Notes under the pieces: generated by a model
What the model saw: the letters and a program-made list of their open reading frames with translations, nothing else
What the model was told of the DNA's origin: nothing
Databases searched by the model: none
Assembly: GCA_003279775.1 (NCBI GenBank)
Contig: QCGW01000003.1
Coordinates: 35,500-99,499 of the forward strand
DNA length: 64,000 nt
Source: Pelagibacteraceae bacterium AG-390-A23
GTDB taxonomy: Bacteria > Pseudomonadota > Alphaproteobacteria > Pelagibacterales > Pelagibacteraceae
Direction of reading: 5' to 3'
In this document: in pieces, positions 2,706 through 38,661 of the stretch
Layout: every line of letters starts with the position of its first letter
Numbering within the stretch: the first letter of the stretch is position 1
Translations under genes and position numbers: made by a program

Positions 2706-3467
2706 TTATCTTCTTTGCCCAAATAATCTTAACAACATTATAAATAAATTAATAAAATCTAGATATAAAGTTAAAGCACCCATCACAGCTTTCTTGCCCA
2801 TTAACTCACCTGAGTCTGAAGCAACATACATATTTTTGATTTTTTGAGTGTCATAAGCTGTTAAACCAACAAATATTAAAACACCTAAAATTGAAATCAC
2901 AAAATACATCATAGAAGATTTCATAAAGATATTAACAATTGAAGCTATAATTATTCCAATTAGACCCATCATTAAAAAAGATCCAAACTTTGTAAGATCT
3001 CTTTTAGTTGTGTATCCATAAATACTCATCGCTCCAAATGTTGCAGATGTAATAAAGAAAACTCTAGTTACACTCATTCCAGTGTAAACTAATAATATTG
3101 AAGATAAAGATAGACCCATCAAAGCTGCAAAAACCCAAAACGTAGTTTGTGCTTTTGATGCACTCATCTTATTAATTCCAAAACTCATGTAAAAAACGAT
3201 ACCTAGAGGTGCTAACATTACAAGCCATTTAAGACCTGATAAATAAATTGCATTCCCCATCTGCGTTAGACCAACGATTGAACCTGCATCATTAGTAACA
3301 ACAGACATTTTAAATGTTAATAGTGCTACTATTCCAGTTAGCAATATACCTGTTGCCATGTAGTTATAAACTTTTAGCATGTAGGCTCTTAAGCCTTCAT
3401 CCATTACAGCAGCCGATTGTTGTGCTGCTTTTGCTCTATTTAGTATTCCGTTTTTATCAAATTCCAT
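2706..3467 (-). CDS. Bax inhibitor-1/YccA family membrane protein
   Basis: Seven-TM, LTAYDTQKIKNMY and LTLYLDFINLFIMLLRLFG C-terminal signature. Confidence 0.92.
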   Translation of the reverse strand: MEFDKNGILNRAKAAQQSAAVMDEGLRAYMLKVYNYMATGILLTGIVALLTFKMSVVTNDAGSIVGLTQMGNAIYLSGLKWLVMLAPLGIVFYMSFGINKMSASKAQTTFWVFAALMGLSLSSILLVYTGMSVTRVFFITSATFGAMSIYGYTTKRDLTKFGSFLMMGLIGIIIASIVNIFMKSSMMYFVISILGVLIFVGLTAYDTQKIKNMYVASDSGELMGKKAVMGALTLYLDFINLFIMLLRLFGQRR

Positions 3468-3546
3468 AATGAGTAATATATATATTCTTTTACTAATTAT
3501 TCAAGATACCTTAAAAGATTAACAAAAATTTAACTTAATATTTCTA

Positions 3547-4581
3547 ATGAATTACAAAAATTTAGGTAATACCAATATTAAAGTAAGTACAATTTGTCTC
3601 GGTACTATGACTTGGGGAGAGCAAAATACTGAACTTGAAGCATTTGAACAAATGGATTTTTCATTAGATCAAGGAGTAAACTTTTGGGACACTGCTGAAT
3701 TATATGCAGTACCACCAAGAAAGGAAACCTATGGTGATACAGAGGAAATTATTGGAAACTGGTTTGAAAAAACAAAAAAAAGAGACAAAGTCATTCTTGC
3801 AACAAAAGTTGCTGGTCCAGCAAGAGATTATTTAAGAAGTGGAGAAAATAGTTTTACAGGTCCAAACTTAGAAACTGCTTTAAATGACAGTCTTAAAAGA
3901 CTTAAAACTGATTATATAGATTTATATCAACTTCATTGGCCAGAAAGAAATGTAAATAATTTTGGAAGACTTGGTTATGTTCATAAGGAAAATGAATGGA
4001 ATAAATTTGAAGATGTTCTTGCAGAGTTAAATAAATATATTGATCAGGGAAAAATAAGATACGTTGGTTTATCAAATGAGACCCCTTGGGGAGTTTTAAA
4101 TTATCTTCAGTTATCCAAAAATAAAAAGTTGCCAAGAATGATGTCAATCCAAAATCCTTATAGTTTATTAAATAGATCTTACGAAGTTGGACTAGCTGAA
4201 GTTTCTATAAGAGAAAACATTGGCTGCTTAGCTTACTCTCCACTTGCAAGTGGATATTTAAGTGGAAAGTATAGAAATAAAAGTTTTCCTAAAGGATCAA
4301 GAATGGAGAGAGATTTCGATTTCTGGACAAGGTATAGAAAGCCAAATACTGAGGATGCCGTTGAACATTATTATAAAATTAGTGAAAAATTTGGTCTAGA
4401 TATGAGTCAGATGGCGATAAAATTTTGTGAAATCCAAGACTTTATGACTAGTGTAATAATTGGAGCAACTACAATGGAGCAGTTGAAAACAAATATAGAA
4501 AGTGTAAATGTAAACTTATCTGATGATGTCATTAAAGAAATTAACCACGTACAAACAATTTATCCAAATCCATGTCCATAA
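3547..4581 (+). CDS. Aldo/keto reductase (Tas-like)
   Basis: NFWDTAELYAVPPRKETYGDTEEIIGNW, YIDLYQLHWPER, SVIIGATTMEQL. Confidence 0.92.
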   Translation: MNYKNLGNTNIKVSTICLGTMTWGEQNTELEAFEQMDFSLDQGVNFWDTAELYAVPPRKETYGDTEEIIGNWFEKTKKRDKVILATKVAGPARDYLRSGENSFTGPNLETALNDSLKRLKTDYIDLYQLHWPERNVNNFGRLGYVHKENEWNKFEDVLAELNKYIDQGKIRYVGLSNETPWGVLNYLQLSKNKKLPRMMSIQNPYSLLNRSYEVGLAEVSIRENIGCLAYSPLASGYLSGKYRNKSFPKGSRMERDFDFWTRYRKPNTEDAVEHYYKISEKFGLDMSQMAIKFCEIQDFMTSVIIGATTMEQLKTNIESVNVNLSDDVIKEINHVQTIYPNPCP

Positions 4582-5084
4582 TTAAAAAAATTACAATATT
4601 GTTAGGAATATTTTTTATAAGTGGTGTTGCTCAAGTTTCAGCTCAGGAAATTAAAAAAATTGGTAAATATAAAGATTGGGAGGCAATGGTCGTTATGGAT
4701 GCTGACGGTAAAGTATGCTTTGCGCAATCTTTACCTATTTTGCAAGCACCCAAAACTAATAAAAGAGATGCAAAATTATTTGTAGCATTTAGACCAAACG
4801 ACAATATAAAAAATGAAGTAAGTGTTACCCCGGGTTATGAATTCAACAAAAATAATTCTGTAACAGCTGCTTCAGGGAAAAATAAATTTAAATTTGATAT
4901 TAAAGAACAAGGTTTTGCGTGGATTGCGGACAATAAAATCGAATTAAAAATGATCAAACAAATGAGAAAAGGATCTAGAATTATGATCACTGGATACAAT
5001 CAACAAGGTTCTCAAACAATTGATCATTACTCATTGCTAGGATTTACTAAAGCGTATAACGCTTCAAGAAAAGCTTGTAGTTAA
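4572..5084 (+). CDS. Invasion-associated locus B family protein, secreted
   Basis: Signal peptide, then KIGKYKDWEAMVV...GKVCFAQS...FRPNDNIKNEVSVTPGYEF...GFAWIADN. Confidence 0.75.
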   Translation: MSIIKKITILLGIFFISGVAQVSAQEIKKIGKYKDWEAMVVMDADGKVCFAQSLPILQAPKTNKRDAKLFVAFRPNDNIKNEVSVTPGYEFNKNNSVTAASGKNKFKFDIKEQGFAWIADNKIELKMIKQMRKGSRIMITGYNQQGSQTIDHYSLLGFTKAYNASRKACS

Positions 5085-5088
5085 TTCG

Positions 5089-6276
5089 ATGAAATCAAAA
5101 AAGAAAATTGTTCTAGCTTATTCTGGAGGGCTCGATACTTCTATAATTTTAAAATGGCTTCAAGAAAATTATGATGCAGATGTAATTTGTTATACAGCAG
5201 ATGTTGGACAAGAAATTGATAGAAAAAAAATTATTACCAATGCAAAAAAATTTGGTGTTAAAAATATAATTATTAAAGATTTAAAAGATATTTTTGTTAA
5301 GGATTATGTATATCCCATGATCAGAGGACACGCGATCTATGAGGGTGTTTATTTATTAGGGACATCAATAGCAAGACCTCTTATTGCAAAAGATCAAATA
5401 AGAGTAGCTAAAAAATTTAAAGCCTATGCAGTTTCACATGGAGCAACTGGTAAAGGCAATGACCAAGTTAGATTTGAATTAGGCTATCATTATTTTGGTC
5501 CTAAAATTAAAATTATAGCTCCGTGGAGAATTTGGAAACTAAAATCTAGAACAGACTTAATTAATTATGCAAAAAAACATAGCATAGCTATTCCTAAAGA
5601 TAAAAAAGGTGCACCTCCTTTTTCAGTGGATGATAATTTATTTCATACATCAACTGAAGGTAAGGTTTTAGAAAATCCAAAAAATTCTGCTCCAGAATTT
5701 ATTTTTCAACGAACAGTTTCTCCTGAAAAAGCACCTAACAAACCATCTTTTGTTACTATTAATTTTAAAAATGGTGATCCTTTTGGAATTAATGGAAAAA
5801 AATTATCTCCAGCTAAATTATTAATAAAGTTAAATGATCTAGCAGGCAAAAATGGAATTGGAAGAGTTGACTTAGTAGAGAATAGATTTTTAGGTATTAA
5901 ATCTAGAGGAGTGTATGAAACACCTGGTGGAACTCTTTTAATAAATGCTCATAGAGCAATTGAGTCTGTTACCTTAGACAAAGAAACTATGCATAAAAAA
6001 GATCAGATAATGTCTAGATATGCAGAGTTAATTTACAATGGTTATTGGTATTCAAAAGAAAGATTTAAACTTCAAAAAATTGTAGATTTAAAAAGAAGCA
6101 AAGTTAATGGCTCAGTTAAACTTAAATTGTATAAAGGAAATATTACAATTCAATCTAGAGTTACTAATAGCAGCGCTTACTCGATGAAAAAAGTCTCATT
6201 TGAAGAAAATAAGTCATTTAATAAATCTAACGTTGAAAGATTTATCAATTTTCACAAAAAAAAGCTTCGTGCATAG
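5089..6276 (+). CDS. argG: Argininosuccinate synthase
   Basis: VLAYSGGLDTSIILKWLQE ATP-pyrophosphatase motif, HGATGKGNDQVRFE. Confidence 0.98.
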   Translation: MKSKKKIVLAYSGGLDTSIILKWLQENYDADVICYTADVGQEIDRKKIITNAKKFGVKNIIIKDLKDIFVKDYVYPMIRGHAIYEGVYLLGTSIARPLIAKDQIRVAKKFKAYAVSHGATGKGNDQVRFELGYHYFGPKIKIIAPWRIWKLKSRTDLINYAKKHSIAIPKDKKGAPPFSVDDNLFHTSTEGKVLENPKNSAPEFIFQRTVSPEKAPNKPSFVTINFKNGDPFGINGKKLSPAKLLIKLNDLAGKNGIGRVDLVENRFLGIKSRGVYETPGGTLLINAHRAIESVTLDKETMHKKDQIMSRYAELIYNGYWYSKERFKLQKIVDLKRSKVNGSVKLKLYKGNITIQSRVTNSSAYSMKKVSFEENKSFNKSNVERFINFHKKKLRA

Positions 6277-30542: not shown

Positions 30543-32080
30543 TGAAGAAAAAAATCAAAACAGCTCTCATTTCTGTATCTGATAAAAATAACTTAAAACC
30601 GTTATTAAATATTTTAAAAAAAAACAAAATTAAAATAATTAGCTCGGGTGGTACTTATAAAGAAATTAAAAGATTAAAATTTAATTGTTTAGAAGTGTCT
30701 GATTTTACCAATTCACCTGAGATTTTGGAGGGCAGAGTAAAAACTCTTCATCCTAAAATTCATGCTGGTATTCTAAATAAAAGAAAAAAAAAATCTCACT
30801 TAAAAGATCTAAAAAATAATGGTTTTGAGAATATTGATTTAGTCGTTGTTAATTTTTATCCATTTGAGAACACTCTTAAAAAAACAAAAAATCATAAAAA
30901 AATTATAGAAAATATAGATGTGGGTGGTCCTACAATGGTCAGGTCTGCAGCTAAAAACTATAATGATGTGACTGTAATAACTTCTTCAGACCAGTATGAG
31001 GATTTAATTGAAGAATTAAAAAAATTCAAAGGATCTACTTCCTTAAGTTTTAGGGAGAAGTTGTCAAGAATAGCTTTTACTGAAACAGCTTATTATGACT
31101 CTGTAATTTCAAGCTACTTAAATACAAAAACAAATACTATTTTCCCTAAGAAAAAAATCTTTCATGGAAATCTAATAGAACAACTTAGATATGGAGAAAA
31201 TCCTCATCAACAAAGTGCAATTTATTCAAGTAGTTTAAGTACAAATTTAAATCAAATTCATGGAAAACAACTAAGTTATAATAATTATAATGATATATTT
31301 AGTGCTCTAACTATTTCAAGATCTTTACCAAAAGGTAAAGGAACTGTCATAGTTAAACATGCAAATCCATGTGGAGTTTCTACTAACAATGACAATTTAG
31401 AGAGTTATAAATCTGCTCTTTCTTGTGATCCCATAAGTGCTTTTGGTGGAATAGTTTCTTGTAATTTTAAAATTACAAAAAATTTAGCTTTAGAACTAAA
31501 TAAATTATTTTTAGAAGTGATTATCGCAAATGGATTTGAAAGTAGTGCTATCAAAATATTAAAAACTAAAAAAAACTTAAGATTAATTGATGGAACAAAT
31601 TATACATCAGAAGAACTTCTTAAATTTTTATCATTCAACCAAAATATAATGATACAATCAGAAGATTTAAATTTATTTTCAACCAAAAATTTTAAAATCG
31701 TTTCAAAACGAAAACCAACATCAAAACAACTTAAAGATCTTATTTTTGCTTTCAATGTATGCAGATACGTTAAATCAAATGCAATTGTATTGGCATCAAA
31801 TGAAACAACTGTTGGTATTGGTTCTGGTCAACCAAGCAGATTAGATAGTTGTCAAATAGCAATAAATAAAATGAAAAAATTTAATCTTCAGAATGATAAT
31901 TTAGTTGCTGCTTCAGATGCATTCTTTCCTTTTGTAGATGGTATTGAAAAATTAGTCCAATCTGGTGTTAGAGCAGTAGTTCAGCCATCTGGATCAATAA
32001 GGGATAAAGAAATAATTAACTTTGCAAATGAAACTGATACCGTGCTTCTTTTCTCAAAGACAAGACACTTTAGGCATTAG
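30542..32080 (+). CDS. purH: Bifunctional AICAR formyltransferase/IMP cyclohydrolase
   Basis: ISSGGTYKEI, GRVKTLHPKIHAGIL, LRYGENPHQQSA, VKHANPCGVST. Confidence 0.97.
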   Translation: MKKKIKTALISVSDKNNLKPLLNILKKNKIKIISSGGTYKEIKRLKFNCLEVSDFTNSPEILEGRVKTLHPKIHAGILNKRKKKSHLKDLKNNGFENIDLVVVNFYPFENTLKKTKNHKKIIENIDVGGPTMVRSAAKNYNDVTVITSSDQYEDLIEELKKFKGSTSLSFREKLSRIAFTETAYYDSVISSYLNTKTNTIFPKKKIFHGNLIEQLRYGENPHQQSAIYSSSLSTNLNQIHGKQLSYNNYNDIFSALTISRSLPKGKGTVIVKHANPCGVSTNNDNLESYKSALSCDPISAFGGIVSCNFKITKNLALELNKLFLEVIIANGFESSAIKILKTKKNLRLIDGTNYTSEELLKFLSFNQNIMIQSEDLNLFSTKNFKIVSKRKPTSKQLKDLIFAFNVCRYVKSNAIVLASNETTVGIGSGQPSRLDSCQIAINKMKKFNLQNDNLVAASDAFFPFVDGIEKLVQSGVRAVVQPSGSIRDKEIINFANETDTVLLFSKTRHFRH

Positions 32081-32414
32081 ATATTTGATCTATTTTCGCG
32101 GCAAGAATAAAATCACTCTCTGCTAGACCTTTAATTGCATGTGTGAATATTTTAATTCTTGCATAACCCCATCCAAACCATAAATCTGGGTGGTGACCTT
32201 CTGACTCAGCTATTTCTGCAACTTTATTTACAAATTCCTGACTTTTTAAAAAATTATCAAATTTAAAACTTTTTATTAAATGAAAACCATCAATTTTATC
32301 CTCTAAAACTTCCCAACCATCAACTTTTTTTAAATATTTATGAATTTCGTCAGCACTGAAAGGAGGAATATTTCCTTCACATGGTACACACTTTTTATTT
32401 GCTAAATCGCTCAT
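32070..32414 (-). CDS. phhB: 4a-hydroxytetrahydrobiopterin dehydratase (PCD/DCoH)
   Basis: FKFDNFLKSQEFVNKVAEIAESEGHHPDLWFGWGYARIKIFTHAIKGLAESDFILAAKID. Confidence 0.92.
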   Translation of the reverse strand: MSDLANKKCVPCEGNIPPFSADEIHKYLKKVDGWEVLEDKIDGFHLIKSFKFDNFLKSQEFVNKVAEIAESEGHHPDLWFGWGYARIKIFTHAIKGLAESDFILAAKIDQISNA

Positions 32415-32424
32415 ACATTTTTTT

Positions 32425-32499
32425 TGGAGCGGGCAAAGGGGGTCGAACCCTCGACCTTCTCGTTGGCAACGAGACGCTCTACCACTGAGCTATGCCCGC
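32425..32499 (-). tRNA. tRNA-Gly (anticodon GCC), CCA encoded
   Basis: Reverse strand gcgggcatagctcagtggtagagcgtctcgttGCCaacgagaaggtcgagggttcgacccccttt gcccgct CCA; all four stems pair. Confidence 0.95.
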
Positions 32500-32538
32500 T
32501 TGTTAAAAAACTATTATAGTTAGCGGTTTTTATAAATG
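32462..32538. repeat. Direct repeat copy 1 (tRNA-Gly 5' half plus promoter)
   Basis: Near-identical to 33477-33550; includes the 37-nt exact match cccgcttgttaaaaaactattatagttagcggttttt. Confidence 0.92.
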
Positions 32539-32541
32539 CAA
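32511..32541 (-). promoter_or_regulatory. tRNA-Gly promoter: -35 TTGCAT, 17-nt spacer, -10 TATAAT
   Basis: Reverse complement reads TTGCAT-ttataaaaaccgctaac-TATAAT upstream of the tRNA. Confidence 0.7.
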
Positions 32542-32655
32542 GTATTAGTTAAATTAGTAAAATTTCATACCAACTGTGTCGTGAGTGTGTTGAGATTGAC
32601 TCGATATTTACTCGGCTGAGGAAATCTATATTTTTAATTTAAAATTAATTTAATA

Positions 32656-33438
32656 TCATTGGGATATTTTTTTAGGATAACAGAAAATTGCAAAATTATG
32701 ACTTTCTGGGTTTATTTTTGCCCATTCTTTATCAGATATACCCCTATCAATTAAAGATTCTGCCTCGTGATGTTTATTAAATTCTATATTATAACCATAT
32801 TCTTCAAAAGTTTTAAAAAAATCATCTATAACCTTTTTATCTAAAAATTTTTTTAATATCTTCCTTTTGTGAAATTCTATCAAAAATTTTGAATTATTTT
32901 TTAACAATTCACTGGAATTTTTTATTACATTTATCTCTTCACCTTCTATATCAATTTTAACTAGGTCAGGATATAAATTGTTTAATTTACAAAAATTATC
33001 TAATGTAAATTTACTATCAACAAAATTTTCCATTATCTTTATATTACTAATTTTAGAACAATTTCTTTTTAAAAAAAATAATTCTAAATCATCTCCCTCG
33101 AAACAATATACCTTCCCATACAATTTTGATGCCAACCAGGAATAATGCCCATATGCAGCTCCTATGTCAAAAAAAATTTTTTCTTTAGAGGCTTCATCTA
33201 TTATTTTTTTAGAAAAAGAATATTCATAATTCATATCGTTATCTAATCCAGTTACATTTCCAGCATTAGAGTTTTCATAAATTTGATGGTTTCTTTTTGT
33301 CATAATCATTTCATGACTTGTATAATTGTGTATTTTAATTTTTGTTTTTTTAATCTTATAGTTTAAAGAAATAAATATTGAATTTATCAAAGGTAAATTA
33401 ATTAATATTTTTTTAATAAATAATTTTACTTTTTCCAT
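32656..33438 (-). CDS. FkbM-family SAM-dependent methyltransferase
   Basis: KIFFDIGAAYGHYSWLASKLYGKVYCFEGDD..., LYPDLVKIDIEGEEINVIKNSSELLK. Confidence 0.88.
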   Translation of the reverse strand: MEKVKLFIKKILINLPLINSIFISLNYKIKKTKIKIHNYTSHEMIMTKRNHQIYENSNAGNVTGLDNDMNYEYSFSKKIIDEASKEKIFFDIGAAYGHYSWLASKLYGKVYCFEGDDLELFFLKRNCSKISNIKIMENFVDSKFTLDNFCKLNNLYPDLVKIDIEGEEINVIKNSSELLKNNSKFLIEFHKRKILKKFLDKKVIDDFFKTFEEYGYNIEFNKHHEAESLIDRGISDKEWAKINPESHNFAIFCYPKKISQ

Positions 33439-33476
33439 TTAATTACATTAATATATCTTGTAAATATTATACTATT

Positions 33477-33550
33477 GTTGACAACGAGATGCTCTATCAC
33501 TGAGTACCCGCTTGTTAAAAAACTATTATAGTTAGCGGTTTTTGTAAATG
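33477..33550 (-). pseudogene. Truncated tRNA-Gly 5' half with its promoter (direct repeat copy 2)
   Basis: gttgacaacgagatgctctatcactgagtacccgcttgttaaaaaactattatagttagcggtttttgtaaatg; anticodon 3' stem, T-arm and 3' acceptor missing. Confidence 0.88.
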
Positions 33551-33671
33551 AAAAAAATAAGAAAATTAATAAAGAGATGTAACGTGAATATACGATGATC
33601 TATTTAAAATGTTATATTATTAAATTCGATAATATCATTGATATAATCATATATTAAAGAATAAATAATTA

Positions 33672-34982
33672 ATGAATAAATTTCAAAATTCTAAAGAATT
33701 TTTAAGCGCAATAGAATATCTAAATAATAAGAATTTCAATGAAGCATTTAAAATAATTAATTCCGTATCCCACAAATATCCAAATGATCAAATAATTTTA
33801 AAAATGTTTGCTTCTATTTATTTTAATAATTCAGAGTGGGAAAAAGCTATTTCCTACTATAAAAAAATTTTAATCTTTGAAAAAGATAAATTTAAAATTT
33901 TATTAAATATTGGTGTAAGTTTATTTAAGCTTGGTAAAATAAATGATTCTATTAAAGTATTTAAGGATTCTATAAAAAGTAATCCTAATTTTGATCTAGC
34001 TTATGATAATTTAGGTATATCATATCTTGAAATTGCTAAACTTAATGAAGCAATTAAAAATTTTTCTCTTGCGCTAGAAATTAACAAAAATAACTTAAAT
34101 GCTCAAAGAAATTTAATTAACTTATTGAGTTTATTTAAGCCAACAGAAAACTATAATAATTTTTTAATTAAGTTAGACAAAGAAATTTCAAATTTAAAAA
34201 AAGATTTAAATATTAAAAATTTGGTTGAAGAAAAAAATATTAAAATAATTTTAAATAAAGGTATAAACTTAATTAATAAACTTGAAAAAGATATCACTTT
34301 TAATGAAACTCAATTATTTATAAAAAATTCTAAAAATTTAAATTGTCAAAGACATTTTAAAGTTTTTAATAAGTTTAATATTATCCCTAAATTTTGTTTT
34401 AACTGTTACAAAATACAAATAAATTTGATTAATGTTGTTGATTTAATCAAATTATCTTTCCTTTTTAAGAATATTAAACTTAAAAATAATAACACTCGTA
34501 AATGTATAGTTGAAATAAGAAATCAGATTAGTGGGAATTATAAAGGGTATATTTACTGTGATGGAATTGAAGAAGCGAAAAATATTTTGGAAATAATAAG
34601 TAAAGAAATTAAAAAAGTAAATCTTGTTGATGCATCTATAAATATAAAGCATGGGTGTTCTGAATTTTACAAACCATATCCAAAATTTGAAAAAGTTAAT
34701 TTAAACAATAAACAAGAGATGAAATATAATGAAAAGTGGGAAGCTAAAGAAAAATTAATTGATAATGAAGAACCTTCAAGAGACTCAATTGATAAAAAAA
34801 TTTGGGTCGCAACTTTAAAGGAAGTTGGCCTTTCAGATATATTGATAGTTAATAATTGGTTAAATTATGCAGATATCATAGGGGATTATAGCTATAAAAA
34901 ATATTTTATTGAAAAAAAATACTCTCCTTATATGAAAAAAATATTATTAAATCAGATTGAATTTAGAAAAACTAATCAATAA
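33672..34982 (+). CDS. TPR-repeat protein with uncharacterised C-terminal domain
   Basis: Repeated TPR units (WEKAISYYKKILIFEKD, GKINDSIKVFKDSIKSNPNFDLAYDNLGISYLEIAKLNEAIKNFSLALEIN), then a Cys-containing region. Confidence 0.8.
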   Translation: MNKFQNSKEFLSAIEYLNNKNFNEAFKIINSVSHKYPNDQIILKMFASIYFNNSEWEKAISYYKKILIFEKDKFKILLNIGVSLFKLGKINDSIKVFKDSIKSNPNFDLAYDNLGISYLEIAKLNEAIKNFSLALEINKNNLNAQRNLINLLSLFKPTENYNNFLIKLDKEISNLKKDLNIKNLVEEKNIKIILNKGINLINKLEKDITFNETQLFIKNSKNLNCQRHFKVFNKFNIIPKFCFNCYKIQINLINVVDLIKLSFLFKNIKLKNNNTRKCIVEIRNQISGNYKGYIYCDGIEEAKNILEIISKEIKKVNLVDASINIKHGCSEFYKPYPKFEKVNLNNKQEMKYNEKWEAKEKLIDNEEPSRDSIDKKIWVATLKEVGLSDILIVNNWLNYADIIGDYSYKKYFIEKKYSPYMKKILLNQIEFRKTNQ

Positions 34983-34991
34983 ATGTTAAAG

Positions 34992-36353
34992 TTAATGATT
35001 AAGCCAACTAAATTTTTTTTTGTAATCATTTAATAAATAAAAATATTCTTGATACTTATTTTTTTCATACCTTGTAATTTTAGATCTTATTTGAGAAAAA
35101 CTTAAAGTCTTGCTATATAAATTTTCCCTTTCATAAAATTTCAAAATTTCATTACTCCAAGTTAAATTACAAAATTTTATAATTTTTTTACAAATATTTT
35201 CATTATCTAAAGTAAAATCTTCTAAATCTACATCCATAATTAAGTTTGGATATTTTTTTTTATAGTAATTAATTACTTTAAAATAACTATCAGCATAATT
35301 TAGAATATCCTCTAAGCTGTGTGTCCATGATAAATCTGGCAACATAGATTGATATATTGAAATTATAGCATCTACAGGTCTCCTAAATGTATGAAGAAAT
35401 TTCACGTTAGGATAAATTTTATAAATCAACTCAATATTAAAAAAATTTTCTAATGATTTATCCACAAATTTTTTAACGTTTTTTTCCTCAGAATTAAAAT
35501 CTGAATATCTATTTAAAATATTTTTATTAAGATTTTTTAAATCAACCTCAAGTTCAAATTTTTTTTCGTCAAAATTTTCGTTAAATATTTTTGAACTAAT
35601 TTGATCAAGAAGAGACATATTTACAACATGTGATTCTCCATAAGAACTTATTTCCTCTTTTGTTGAGGTTAATATAGATTCTACAAGCGTTGATCCTGAT
35701 CTAGGAAGCCCAATGATAAATATTGGATTTATTTTGTTTTTACTAATATTTTTTATATCTTCTTTTTTTATTTTTATTCTATCAAAATGTTTGCTTATAA
35801 TTTTTTGATAATAAAATTGTGAAGATTTATTATATGAATAATTTAAATTAAAAATACTTTCATGAGATTTTCTCAAAAAAGATATTTCATTATCAAATTT
35901 TTTATTCTTTTTCTCCTTTTTTGATAAAAGAAAATTAATAATTCCTTCCTCATATTTGTTAAGTTTTTTTTTATTTTTTATTTTATTTAAATTTTCGAAT
36001 AAGTTCGTGGTAAGATTTTTTGGATCAAGATTAAAAAGACCATAATAGGGTCTAACATCAAAATTATTCAAATTTAGTAATTTTGTATAAGTTGCTTTTG
36101 CTTCTTCAAACTTGCCCATAGTTTGCATAACAATCGCTAAATTTAATAATCCTGGAAAAGAATTTTTATCGTTTTCTAAATATTTTTTGTAATAATAAAT
36201 ACTTGTTTTAAAATCATTAAGTTCAAAATTTATCAATCCAAGATAAAAATCAATTCTTTTATCTGTTTGTATTTTTTGTAACTCTTGAAATACTTTTAGT
36301 GCCTTTCCAAATTCTTTTTGTTTTATTAACTTTTGACCAATTAAAAAATTCAT
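34992..36353 (-). CDS. TPR-sulfotransferase fusion protein
   Basis: TPR units then NPIFIIGLPRSGSTLVESIL (PAPS 5'-phosphosulfate loop), VKFLHTFRRPVDAIISIYQS. Confidence 0.9.
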   Translation of the reverse strand: MNFLIGQKLIKQKEFGKALKVFQELQKIQTDKRIDFYLGLINFELNDFKTSIYYYKKYLENDKNSFPGLLNLAIVMQTMGKFEEAKATYTKLLNLNNFDVRPYYGLFNLDPKNLTTNLFENLNKIKNKKKLNKYEEGIINFLLSKKEKKNKKFDNEISFLRKSHESIFNLNYSYNKSSQFYYQKIISKHFDRIKIKKEDIKNISKNKINPIFIIGLPRSGSTLVESILTSTKEEISSYGESHVVNMSLLDQISSKIFNENFDEKKFELEVDLKNLNKNILNRYSDFNSEEKNVKKFVDKSLENFFNIELIYKIYPNVKFLHTFRRPVDAIISIYQSMLPDLSWTHSLEDILNYADSYFKVINYYKKKYPNLIMDVDLEDFTLDNENICKKIIKFCNLTWSNEILKFYERENLYSKTLSFSQIRSKITRYEKNKYQEYFYLLNDYKKKFSWLNH

Positions 36354-36402
36354 ATAATTTTAAAGTATTGTTATTTTTAAATTTATTATTATCTTAATAA
36401 AT

Positions 36403-37047
36403 ATGAAAAAAGAAGAATTACCAAAAACTATACCTGTATTTCCGCTTAGTAATTTTATAATTTTTCCAAAAACGACAGTCCCATTAAATATTTTTGAACC
36501 ACGGTACATTGATATGATAAATGACAGCATGAGTTCAAATAAAATGATAGGTATGATACAACCTAAAAATTCAGTTGGCGAAAAAATACCACCAGATCTT
36601 CATGATGTTGGATGTTTAGGAAAGATTACAAGCTTTACCGAAACTGAAGATGGTAGATTTCTAATTGAATTAAAAGGAATTTTAAGATTTAAAAAATCAA
36701 AGGAAGTTAATTTAGAAAAAAAATATAGATCACTAGAAGTTGAATATAGCAATTATTATCACGATTTAGATAATACTAAAGAAGAATTAAAATTTAGCGA
36801 TTTAGAGCTCATATTTAAAGACCTAAAATCATTATTTGAAAGAAAAGGATTTATAATTAACTGGAAAGCTCTTGAAAAACAAAGTTTGGATGAAACAATT
36901 AATGCATTAGCAATGGCATCACCATTTACCCTGGAGGAAAAACAAGTTTTATTAGAAACAATAAATTTAGATAACAGAAAAAATAAAATCTCAGAAATAT
37001 TAAAAACATATACACATGATGTTTTTGAAAATAATACTATTCAATAA
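36403..37047 (+). CDS. LON peptidase substrate-binding (N-terminal) domain protein
   Basis: IPVFPLSNFIIFPKTTVPLNIFEPRYIDMINDSM...GMIQPK...VGCLGKITSF. Confidence 0.93.
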   Translation: MKKEELPKTIPVFPLSNFIIFPKTTVPLNIFEPRYIDMINDSMSSNKMIGMIQPKNSVGEKIPPDLHDVGCLGKITSFTETEDGRFLIELKGILRFKKSKEVNLEKKYRSLEVEYSNYYHDLDNTKEELKFSDLELIFKDLKSLFERKGFIINWKALEKQSLDETINALAMASPFTLEEKQVLLETINLDNRKNKISEILKTYTHDVFENNTIQ

Positions 37048-37065
37048 AATAAATTAATTTTATTC

Positions 37066-38661
37066 TTATTTATATTCAAAATATTTAACCCATTTATCTA
37101 GAATTTCTTTAAAGTCAGAAAACTTATCTTCATAATTTTTCCATCTGTTTATCGAATCTTGATAAATTGGTTGATTGACTTGATTATAACTTGGTGTGTT
37201 AATCAATCTTTTTTTATCAGCTGTCATATAAAATTTTCTTAAATCTTTAGACCATTTTAAATCAAGGAAATTAAGTAAATTTTTTAATGATGTATCAAAA
37301 TTATTCACAACATCTTCATATTTAATAATATGAACATTTAAGTTTATTATTTCTTTATAACTTCTCCATAATTTCATAACAGAGTCATAAAAAATAACTG
37401 TATCTTGTAAGTTTAAAAAATTTGACATAGCGTCATTGGGTATAAACGGCTGCATGAAACAACTTAATACTGCATCATAAGGATTTCTTAAAGCAAATAT
37501 AAATTTTGCTGAAGGAAAGATTTTTATAATTTCAGCAATAAAAATTATGTTTAATGGTAGTTTATCAATAAAAATTTCGTTTTGCTCTAATTTAATAAAC
37601 TTATCTCTTTCATCAAAATAAATTTTTTGTATTTCTGCAATTTTATTCTTATCTAATTTTTCTAAATTTGAAAAATCCTCTTTCAAACTTGCTTCTAGTT
37701 CCAATATAATTTTATCTATTAATGGTTTTTCTTCCAAAACTTTAATAGATTTATGTGATCTCAATATTGTATCCAACAATGTGGTACCAGATCTTGGAAA
37801 ACCTATCAAAAAAACTAAATTATTTTTATCTTCAATTTTTTCTTTTGAAATTTTTAAACAATTATTCGCAAAAAATTGTAATCTTTTATCTATTAAATTT
37901 AAGTATCTATCTTTGTTAACTTGATTTAAATAAGTTTTTTTTAAGATTGAGTTAGTCTCTTCATAAAAATGAAAAGCCTTTTCATAAAGCTTTAGTTGAT
38001 CATAACTTTTTGCTAGAATATTTGCTCTTAAAACACTTTTAGATATTTCATTTTTTTCTAACTCAAGATTTTTAAATATATCAATAGAAGCTTTGAAATT
38101 TTTTTTTCTATACTCATAGATACCCTCAAAAAACTTTGTAAAATTATTTAAACCAAAAACTTTTTTTGCTCTATTTAATATTTCTTTTAATTTTTCTAAA
38201 TTATTTGATCTATCATAAAGCTGAAATAAATTATTATACGGATTAATATTATTTGGATTAATTTCTATAGATAAATTAAAATACTTTTCAGCATTGCTCA
38301 TATCTTCATTTAAAAGATAAAAATTAGCTAAATTATAATTTGCGGTAAAATTTCTTGAATCTATCTTTATGGCTTTTAAATAATTACTTAAGGCTAAATC
38401 CTTATTTCCTATTTGAGCATATATACTTCCTAAGATGCTATATGATGCAGGAAAATTTGAATTAATTTTAATTGATTTTTTAAAGCAAACTATTGCTTCC
38501 TCTAAATTTCCTAAATATTTATTTACTAAGCCTAAATTATATATTAACTCAAAAGAGTTATTATTTATTTTGATTGCTTCAACCAATAATTCTTTAGCTT
38601 TTACAAAATTTTTTTTTTCGATTTCTGTTCTAGCTAATTTTAATAAAAACTCGTAATTCAT
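37066..38661 (-). CDS. TPR-sulfotransferase fusion protein
   Basis: TPR array, then LVFLIGFPRSGTTLLDTILRSH, AKFIFALRNPYDAVLSCFMQ. Confidence 0.92.
   Translation of the reverse strand: MNYEFLLKLARTEIEKKNFVKAKELLVEAIKINNNSFELIYNLGLVNKYLGNLEEAIVCFKKSIKINSNFPASYSILGSIYAQIGNKDLALSNYLKAIKIDSRNFTANYNLANFYLLNEDMSNAEKYFNLSIEINPNNINPYNNLFQLYDRSNNLEKLKEILNRAKKVFGLNNFTKFFEGIYEYRKKNFKASIDIFKNLELEKNEISKSVLRANILAKSYDQLKLYEKAFHFYEETNSILKKTYLNQVNKDRYLNLIDKRLQFFANNCLKISKEKIEDKNNLVFLIGFPRSGTTLLDTILRSHKSIKVLEEKPLIDKIILELEASLKEDFSNLEKLDKNKIAEIQKIYFDERDKFIKLEQNEIFIDKLPLNIIFIAEIIKIFPSAKFIFALRNPYDAVLSCFMQPFIPNDAMSNFLNLQDTVIFYDSVMKLWRSYKEIINLNVHIIKYEDVVNNFDTSLKNLLNFLDLKWSKDLRKFYMTADKKRLINTPSYNQVNQPIYQDSINRWKNYEDKFSDFKEILDKWVKYFEYK

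Follow-up and report, generated by a model that had tools for sequence, protein, structure and literature searches.

A small integrase-less element, probably inserted at the tRNA-Gly(GCC) gene of a Pelagibacteraceae genome, and its cassette family in SAR11

The SAR11 bacteria are among the most abundant bacteria and exchange genes widely, and few vehicles of this exchange are known. In Pelagibacteraceae bacterium AG-390-A23, the 5' half of a tRNA-Gly(GCC) gene occurs a second time, together with its promoter, about 1 kb from the intact gene, and a single methyltransferase gene lies between the two copies. How did this arrangement arise, and does the enclosed segment belong to something mobile? 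The locus lies in a stretch of 64,000 nucleotides (contig QCGW01000003.1, positions 35,500 to 99,499), referred to here as the window. Comparison with related genomes suggests that the interval 32.46-33.48 kb of the window is probably a small integrated element of a SAR11 tRNA-Gly(GCC) family which has lost its P arm.

The promoter part of the duplication is a direct repeat of 67 nt, 87% identical, with its copies 1012 nt apart (32495-32561 and 33507-33573), and a block of 37 nt within it is exact (32495-32531 and 33507-33543). Promoter and tRNA sequence were joined by gapped BLAST over 80 columns at 88.8% (E=1.7e-24), and the promoters of both copies, upstream of the tRNA, were aligned over 62 nt at 85% (E=8e-18); a chance repeat was ruled out by the repeat search, the gapped BLAST and the promoter alignment. 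The near-identical copies, the 37-nt block, the substitutions and the loss of 3 nt in the second copy, all reported in a preliminary description of this DNA, are therefore real. The second copy differs by a few substitutions, has lost its 3 nt in the D-arm region, and is without the 3' half after position ~38; the duplicated block ends within the anticodon loop (TTGCCAA, 32469-32463) plus one stem base. Thus the extent given earlier holds for the second copy, which stops at the anticodon loop, whereas the intact copy spans the whole tRNA from 32425. The same description was right that the bracketed gene is of the FkbM type (Table 1) and that no integrase is present: the FkbM open reading frame, whose start lies ~40 nt from the displaced half, is the sole gene between the copies, and the window element is without integrase, replication or packaging genes of its own. 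No FkbM homologue was found in the other compared loci, the other cassettes or the viral contigs, and FkbM as a widespread cassette cargo was accordingly rejected.

Table 1. Features of the tRNA-Gly(GCC) locus, in positions of the window
Feature	Position	Strand	Basis
phhB (pterin dehydratase), left flank, comparison anchor	32070..32414	(-)	in 317/399 congeneric genomes
tRNA-Gly(GCC), intact, sole tRNA-Gly(GCC) call	32425..32499	(-)	ARAGORN
Anticodon stem-loop TCTCG-TTGCCAA-CGAGA, putative integrase core site (attB core / crossover region)	32458..32474	(-)	sibling ends
Element right end: tRNA promoter and att arm	32500..32597	(-)	match to right end of 1647-bp cassette
Arm-type repeat ACACACTCACGACACA	32575..32590	(-)	motif search; both ends of sibling cassettes
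FkbM-domain methyltransferase cargo, 260 aa	32656..33438	(-), away from displaced tRNA promoter	PF05050, E=4.6e-6
Expected place of P arm GTAGTCC...	33439..33476	(.)	AATAGTATAATATTTACAAG... compared with sibling P arms
Displaced tRNA-Gly 5' half, positions 1 to ~38	33477..33511	(-)	repeat search and alignment
Displaced tRNA promoter	33512..33573	(-)	62-nt alignment; spacing to TPR start
TPR protein, pre-insertion neighbour, flank outside insert	33672..34982	(+)	56-58% identical syntenic genes in L035, L036, L051

Across 40 relatives, the backbone at this place consists of purH, phhB, the tRNA, LON and a ubiH-like gene. In four loci (L039, L040, L043, L044) LON comes straight after the tRNA, across a short gap (phhB-tRNA-LON), and in three others (L035, L036, L051) the tRNA has as its next neighbours the TPR and TPR-sulfotransferase genes also present in the window (52-58% identity), without FkbM and without a second tRNA copy. 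The distance from the displaced half to the TPR start codon in the window is 160 nt, equal to that from the tRNA to the TPR start in the uninserted L035. Within this 160-nt stretch, the alignment of the window with L035 beats all 300 shuffles and that with L051 reaches p=0.01, and no alignment with L036 goes beyond the shuffles. Because spacing and alignment fit the uninserted relatives, the second copy and what lies to the right of it appear native, which would leave ~1.01 kb for the insert; the uninserted site is shown here by architecture and short homology rather than by a near-identical strain. The alignment across relatives that had been proposed as a check thus revealed both uninserted sites and variable cargo at the same point, and the relatives differ in arrangement instead of uniformly carrying the FkbM gene. 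The second copy as a conserved functional RNA, the other way in which the insertion might have failed, was rejected, because uninserted relatives do not have it and it decays. It was also observed that single sulfotransferase, FkbM-like and TPR genes come and go in the neighbourhood (window 33672-38661, loci L032-L071). The spots of this single-gene flux lie between phhB and the tRNA, between the tRNA and LON, and at other intergenic places, with no tRNA fragments visible.

The right end of the insert resembles elements of other genomes. Its 98 nt match the right end of a 1647-bp cassette at 92.9% identity (E=5e-40), a match that begins exactly at the arm repeat, and ACACACTCACGACACA has a single match in the window even at 2 mismatches, with 0 expected in shuffles. 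By comparison, this promoter and att arm would have been handed to the tRNA by the insertion, the intact tRNA would be a chimera of an element-borne 5' half and a host 3' half, and the displaced promoter is probably the host's original. The alternative of a local duplication scar, in which a tandem or strand-slippage copy of the 5' half and promoter arose and FkbM was acquired independently between the copies through the gene flux at this intergenic place, would agree with the 37 identical nt of the two promoters, with a window element that has no P arm, and with the sulfotransferase, FkbM and TPR genes that come and go here and elsewhere without a tRNA fragment. However, it is the intact copy, not the second one, that extends 36 nt into the att arm, at 93% identity with the cassettes of other species, and a local duplication would not create such an extension; moreover, the break lies at the anticodon stem-loop, which is also its place in 28 other genomes, and the spacing from the second copy to the TPR gene equals the uninserted arrangement. 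A scar is therefore considered unlikely.

The family to which the integrated element is assigned was first sought in 399 genomes of the genus as a tRNA 5' half without its 3' half following, and such an unjoined half was found in 15 of them. The junction pattern CAACGAG|GTA or |GCA was then recovered from 28 GTDB genomes, all of Pelagibacteraceae. The displaced halves end at CGAG in all 28 loci, exactly at CAACGAG on the 3' side of the anticodon stem before GTA or GCA, and in the siblings they run on into a common element arm, GTAGTCC... In the window as well as in the siblings, the cognate fragment is displaced in the same orientation, at the end far from the restored intact tRNA. Most loci (24/28) are integrase-less and hold only cargo, in 0.86-3.9 kb. 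Twenty of the 28 carry a cassette of ~1.65 kb with one secreted choice-of-anchor beta-propeller gene; its length is 1646-1648 bp in 17 loci and 1689 bp in one, the other two running beyond the compared stretch. Further integrase-less cassettes contain a HATPase protein (2273 bp), small open reading frames (1098 bp), a pilin-like protein (861 bp) or, in L127, a phosphonate-type ABC transporter operon (phnDCE) with a ubiE-like methyltransferase (3926 bp), the operon (2959-6204) encoding a phosphonate-binding protein, an ABC ATPase, a permease and the methyltransferase. The L127 and beta-propeller cassettes share 151 bp at 96% on the left and 167 bp at 93% on the right, while their interiors are unrelated; the cargo is therefore interchangeable between standard ends. 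Judged from these sequences, the tRNA-Gly point is a recurrent target with variable cargo, and the comparison shows two family layouts with the same att ends, autonomous satellite-like elements of ~6 kb and integrase-less cassettes that hold one gene or operon in 0.86-3.9 kb. Among the viral contigs no free cassette was found, and in the plasmid search only the tRNA matched.

The autonomous layout is represented by 4/28 GTDB loci, in which a tyrosine integrase lies directly beside the junction in elements of ~6 kb; an integrase is also present in L198, and in G124 the autonomous element reaches ~8.4 kb and the displaced half reads on slightly longer. As expected of satellites, L079, L114, L131, L152 and L153 are small and possess integrase and replication genes without structural genes. 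Their genes include the integrase and a primase/helicase or AAA ATPase, and a terminase small subunit in L079 (PF03592) is at most suggestive of packaging by a helper phage. L079, L152 and L153 are free satellites on contigs of 5.9-6.2 kb with terminal repeats of 55-123 nt, and are therefore probably circular; in them the tRNA 5' half and its arms precede the integrase, and ATPase genes are also present. In the P arm, the autonomous L131 shares its first 80 nt with the cassette L120 at 98.8% and 96 nt with L116 at 95.8%. The cassettes match the satellite P arm up to approximately the integrase start and then switch to cargo, keeping the spacing to a vestigial start-codon region where the satellites have the integrase ATG. 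The attP of L152 and L153, viral contigs of ~6 kb, holds the 5' half of tRNA-Val(TAC), which has the stem arms TCTCG/CGA in common with tRNA-Gly, not the loop. This version was seen in these two viral contigs only; neither such an insertion nor a tRNA-Val cassette with the satellite-type junction occurred in the 399 Pelagibacter genomes, and the host of L152/L153 may lie elsewhere. Relatives of the integrase in isolate phages are only ~32% identical and belong to Pseudomonas phages. More distant members of the integrase clade (L178-L195, 27-52% identical) adjoin tRNA-Met-like sequences and tmRNA in Pelagibacter genomes.

Evidence for movement comes from eleven genomes in which the cassettes are 96.8% identical on average (90.7-99.9), compared with 73.6% for purH, 75.5% for phhB and 71.4% for LON in the backbone. 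Promoter identity is 97% among the intact tRNA genes and 59% among the displaced halves, and it follows that the element brings a promoter and 5' half and that the host's own are displaced. Among the siblings, three different host 3' halves are attached to one and the same element 5' half; together with the promoter identities, this places the crossover within the anticodon stem-loop. Identity drops sharply at either end, which speaks for site-specific insertion and not homologous exchange, and the comparison shows that integrase-less cassettes have moved between distant species.

These data also bear on the possibility that the class consists of satellites reduced by deletion to dead remnants, whose only means of spread would be homologous recombination of their flanks, not site-specific integration. 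Such an origin would account for the 24/28 loci without an integrase and for the vestigial integrase start region of the cassettes, but homologous exchange would drag the flanks along, whereas homology stops at the element ends, with ~97% identity inside, 59% in the outside promoters and ~71-76% in the genes. One element joined to three different 3' halves and a length that stays at 1646-1648 bp across many species likewise speak against remnants, which we judge improbable. For the window locus, the preliminary description had wavered between a mini-island, decayed or passively moved, and a duplication scar; the insertion of a mini-island with displacement of the 5' half and promoter is upheld, and scar and passive movement are unsupported because integrase-less siblings share precise att ends and are spread between species, which makes the class a mobile one.

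Site-specific insertion would be consistent with the anatomy of the ends. The stem TCTCG/CGAGA with its 7-nt loop has the form of a tyrosine-recombinase core. The two ends of an element bear short repeats that match each other; GACACACTCACGACACA is one example, and others occur as GGCCACAC.GACGGCCACA-like copies on each side; as expected, these fit putative integrase arm sites. The arm motif had one match in viral contigs, in an unrelated G+C-rich contig. In the proposed mechanism, the element would insert into tRNA-Gly(GCC) at the anticodon stem-loop, carrying its own tRNA 5' half and promoter; the tRNA would thereby be restored from the front, and the host's original 5' half and promoter would be pushed to the far side. 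The integrase of autonomous relatives may act in trans to excise and insert the cassettes, and the displaced host tRNA promoter could serve cargo lying in the tRNA direction. FkbM in the window, and the beta-propeller, HATPase and phn genes elsewhere, read in this direction. For the genus as a whole, we lean towards a cassette exchange in SAR11 in which interchangeable cargo would be moved by satellite integrases acting in trans, promoters would be traded and phnCDEubiE would find a vehicle.

The window element itself has probably lost part of this equipment. Att sequence is recognisable at both ends in the siblings and at the right end only in the window, where the P arm GTAGTCC..., compared with the sibling P arms, is not recognisable at its expected place, being deleted or decayed. 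Since one arm has decayed, the window copy by itself does not reveal the exact crossover. In G194 (L176), too, a cassette has a displaced side in partial decay. The window element is thus probably an FkbM-cargo cassette whose P arm is lost, immobile and decaying. Against this reading stand its single recognisable att end, the lack of FkbM in other cassettes, the likeness of its two promoters, and a search of the window's genome (82% complete) in which no integrase of the family turned up. The 37-nt exact block is common to its two promoters, and in siblings the displaced and intact promoters are usually unlike; a similar host promoter type, copy-to-copy conversion or an older element end must be assumed for the window. 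It was also considered that the second copy might terminate an older element of this family, with the present one stacked on it; this was rejected, no arm being detected in the window (alignment against shuffles, p 0.12-0.88). Three other displaced ends, those of L125, L137 and L147, do have the decayed arm repeats of an older element, upstream of the half and next to its promoter, and insertions therefore seem to have stacked repeatedly at one tRNA.

SAR11 recombines a lot, promoters at the locus vary strongly between close relatives and the window has a cassette-like right end only, yet the idea that homologous recombination with a cassette donor gave this right end and promoter, with FkbM and the second copy added by a separate event, is very improbable, as it needs two events with breakpoints mimicking one integration, and one-sided decay of a genuine cassette is seen in G194.

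Displacement of a 5' fragment by a tRNA island is already known as a minority arrangement, and Zhao and Williams reportedly described in 2002 an element with reversed target-gene orientation. In the Islander collection, 159 of 3919 tRNA islands have a 5' fragment, and candidates without an integrase or below 2 kb are rejected (PMC4383910). The "inverted arrangement" noted earlier at this locus is hence correct as to the displaced 5' half and belongs to this known minority. The 5'-fragment islands resemble the present elements in the tyrosine-integrase-type insertion into a tRNA, the restored gene, the displaced fragment and the anticodon sublocation, but they carry an integrase and measure at least 2 kb, and most elements here have neither feature. 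The autonomous relatives, ~6 kb, probably circular and with integrase and primase/helicase or ATPase, are similar to PICI-like satellites, PICMI (PMC10803314) and VEIMEs (PMC11389934), whereas the cassettes, in contrast to small phage satellites, have att ends and cargo only. Tycheposons are bordered by a tRNA, measure 4-200 kb and encode a tyrosine recombinase (PMC10872708); they too are marine, tRNA-bordered cargo carriers with nutrient genes as cargo, but the cassettes are 0.86-3.9 kb long, have no recombinase and displace the 5' half rather than the tRNA end. The window element, with 1.0 kb and no recombinase, falls outside the tycheposon definition.

CIMEs and integron cassettes are cargo units that keep only recombination sites. 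Like them, and like CALIN and MITEs (described, with hitchers, in PMC11389934), the cassettes are cargo units that keep recombination sites and would receive their enzyme from elsewhere. Unlike in integron cassettes and MITEs, the junctions consist of tRNA anticodon stem-loop sequence and arm-type repeats in place of attC or transposon ends, and each insertion also swaps the tRNA promoter. By analogy, the cassettes behave like integron cassettes or satellite MITEs, hitchers as PMC11389934 uses the word, and appear to belong to neither family. Mobile integrase-less cassettes of <2 kb appear to be a new form; elements this small and without integrase escape standard island searches. They provide a precisely defined target and ends, a candidate enzyme and a cargo that includes a phosphonate-type transporter.

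The phosphonate-type cargo relates to a 2025 study which gives phnCDEubiE as the sole genes meeting its criteria for recent transfer between Pelagibacterales and HIMB59, an inter-order event, and in which tyrosine recombinases and tRNA genes adjoin phnCDEubiE in Pelagibacterales (PMC12416821). The L127 operon is of the same kind, lies at a tRNA and probably corresponds to that phnCDEubiE operon; the vehicle is not named in the relevant passages of that study, whereas here it would be an integrase-less cassette with defined ends. The promoter swap places an essential tRNA gene under a foreign promoter with every insertion. If the proposed exchange is true, the tRNA is served by the element promoter and the cargo by the host tRNA promoter, and transfers like that of phnCDEubiE would have a vehicle.

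The beta-propeller gene was also encountered outside the usual setting. In G354, G291 and G345 (L171, L172, L173) it lies away from tRNA-Gly, and in G354 and G291 (L162/L163) it adjoins arm repeats and a truncated integrase start, an arrangement that may be an intermediate of capture or may result from insertion at a site other than a tRNA. In viral contigs the gene had one match, in a contig of 21 kb, with no att sequence just downstream of the gene. This viral copy (L202:64-1967) is 87% identical and stands directly before a PstS-like phosphate-binding gene, and this neighbour is a hint that the most frequent cassette cargo has a phosphorus role.
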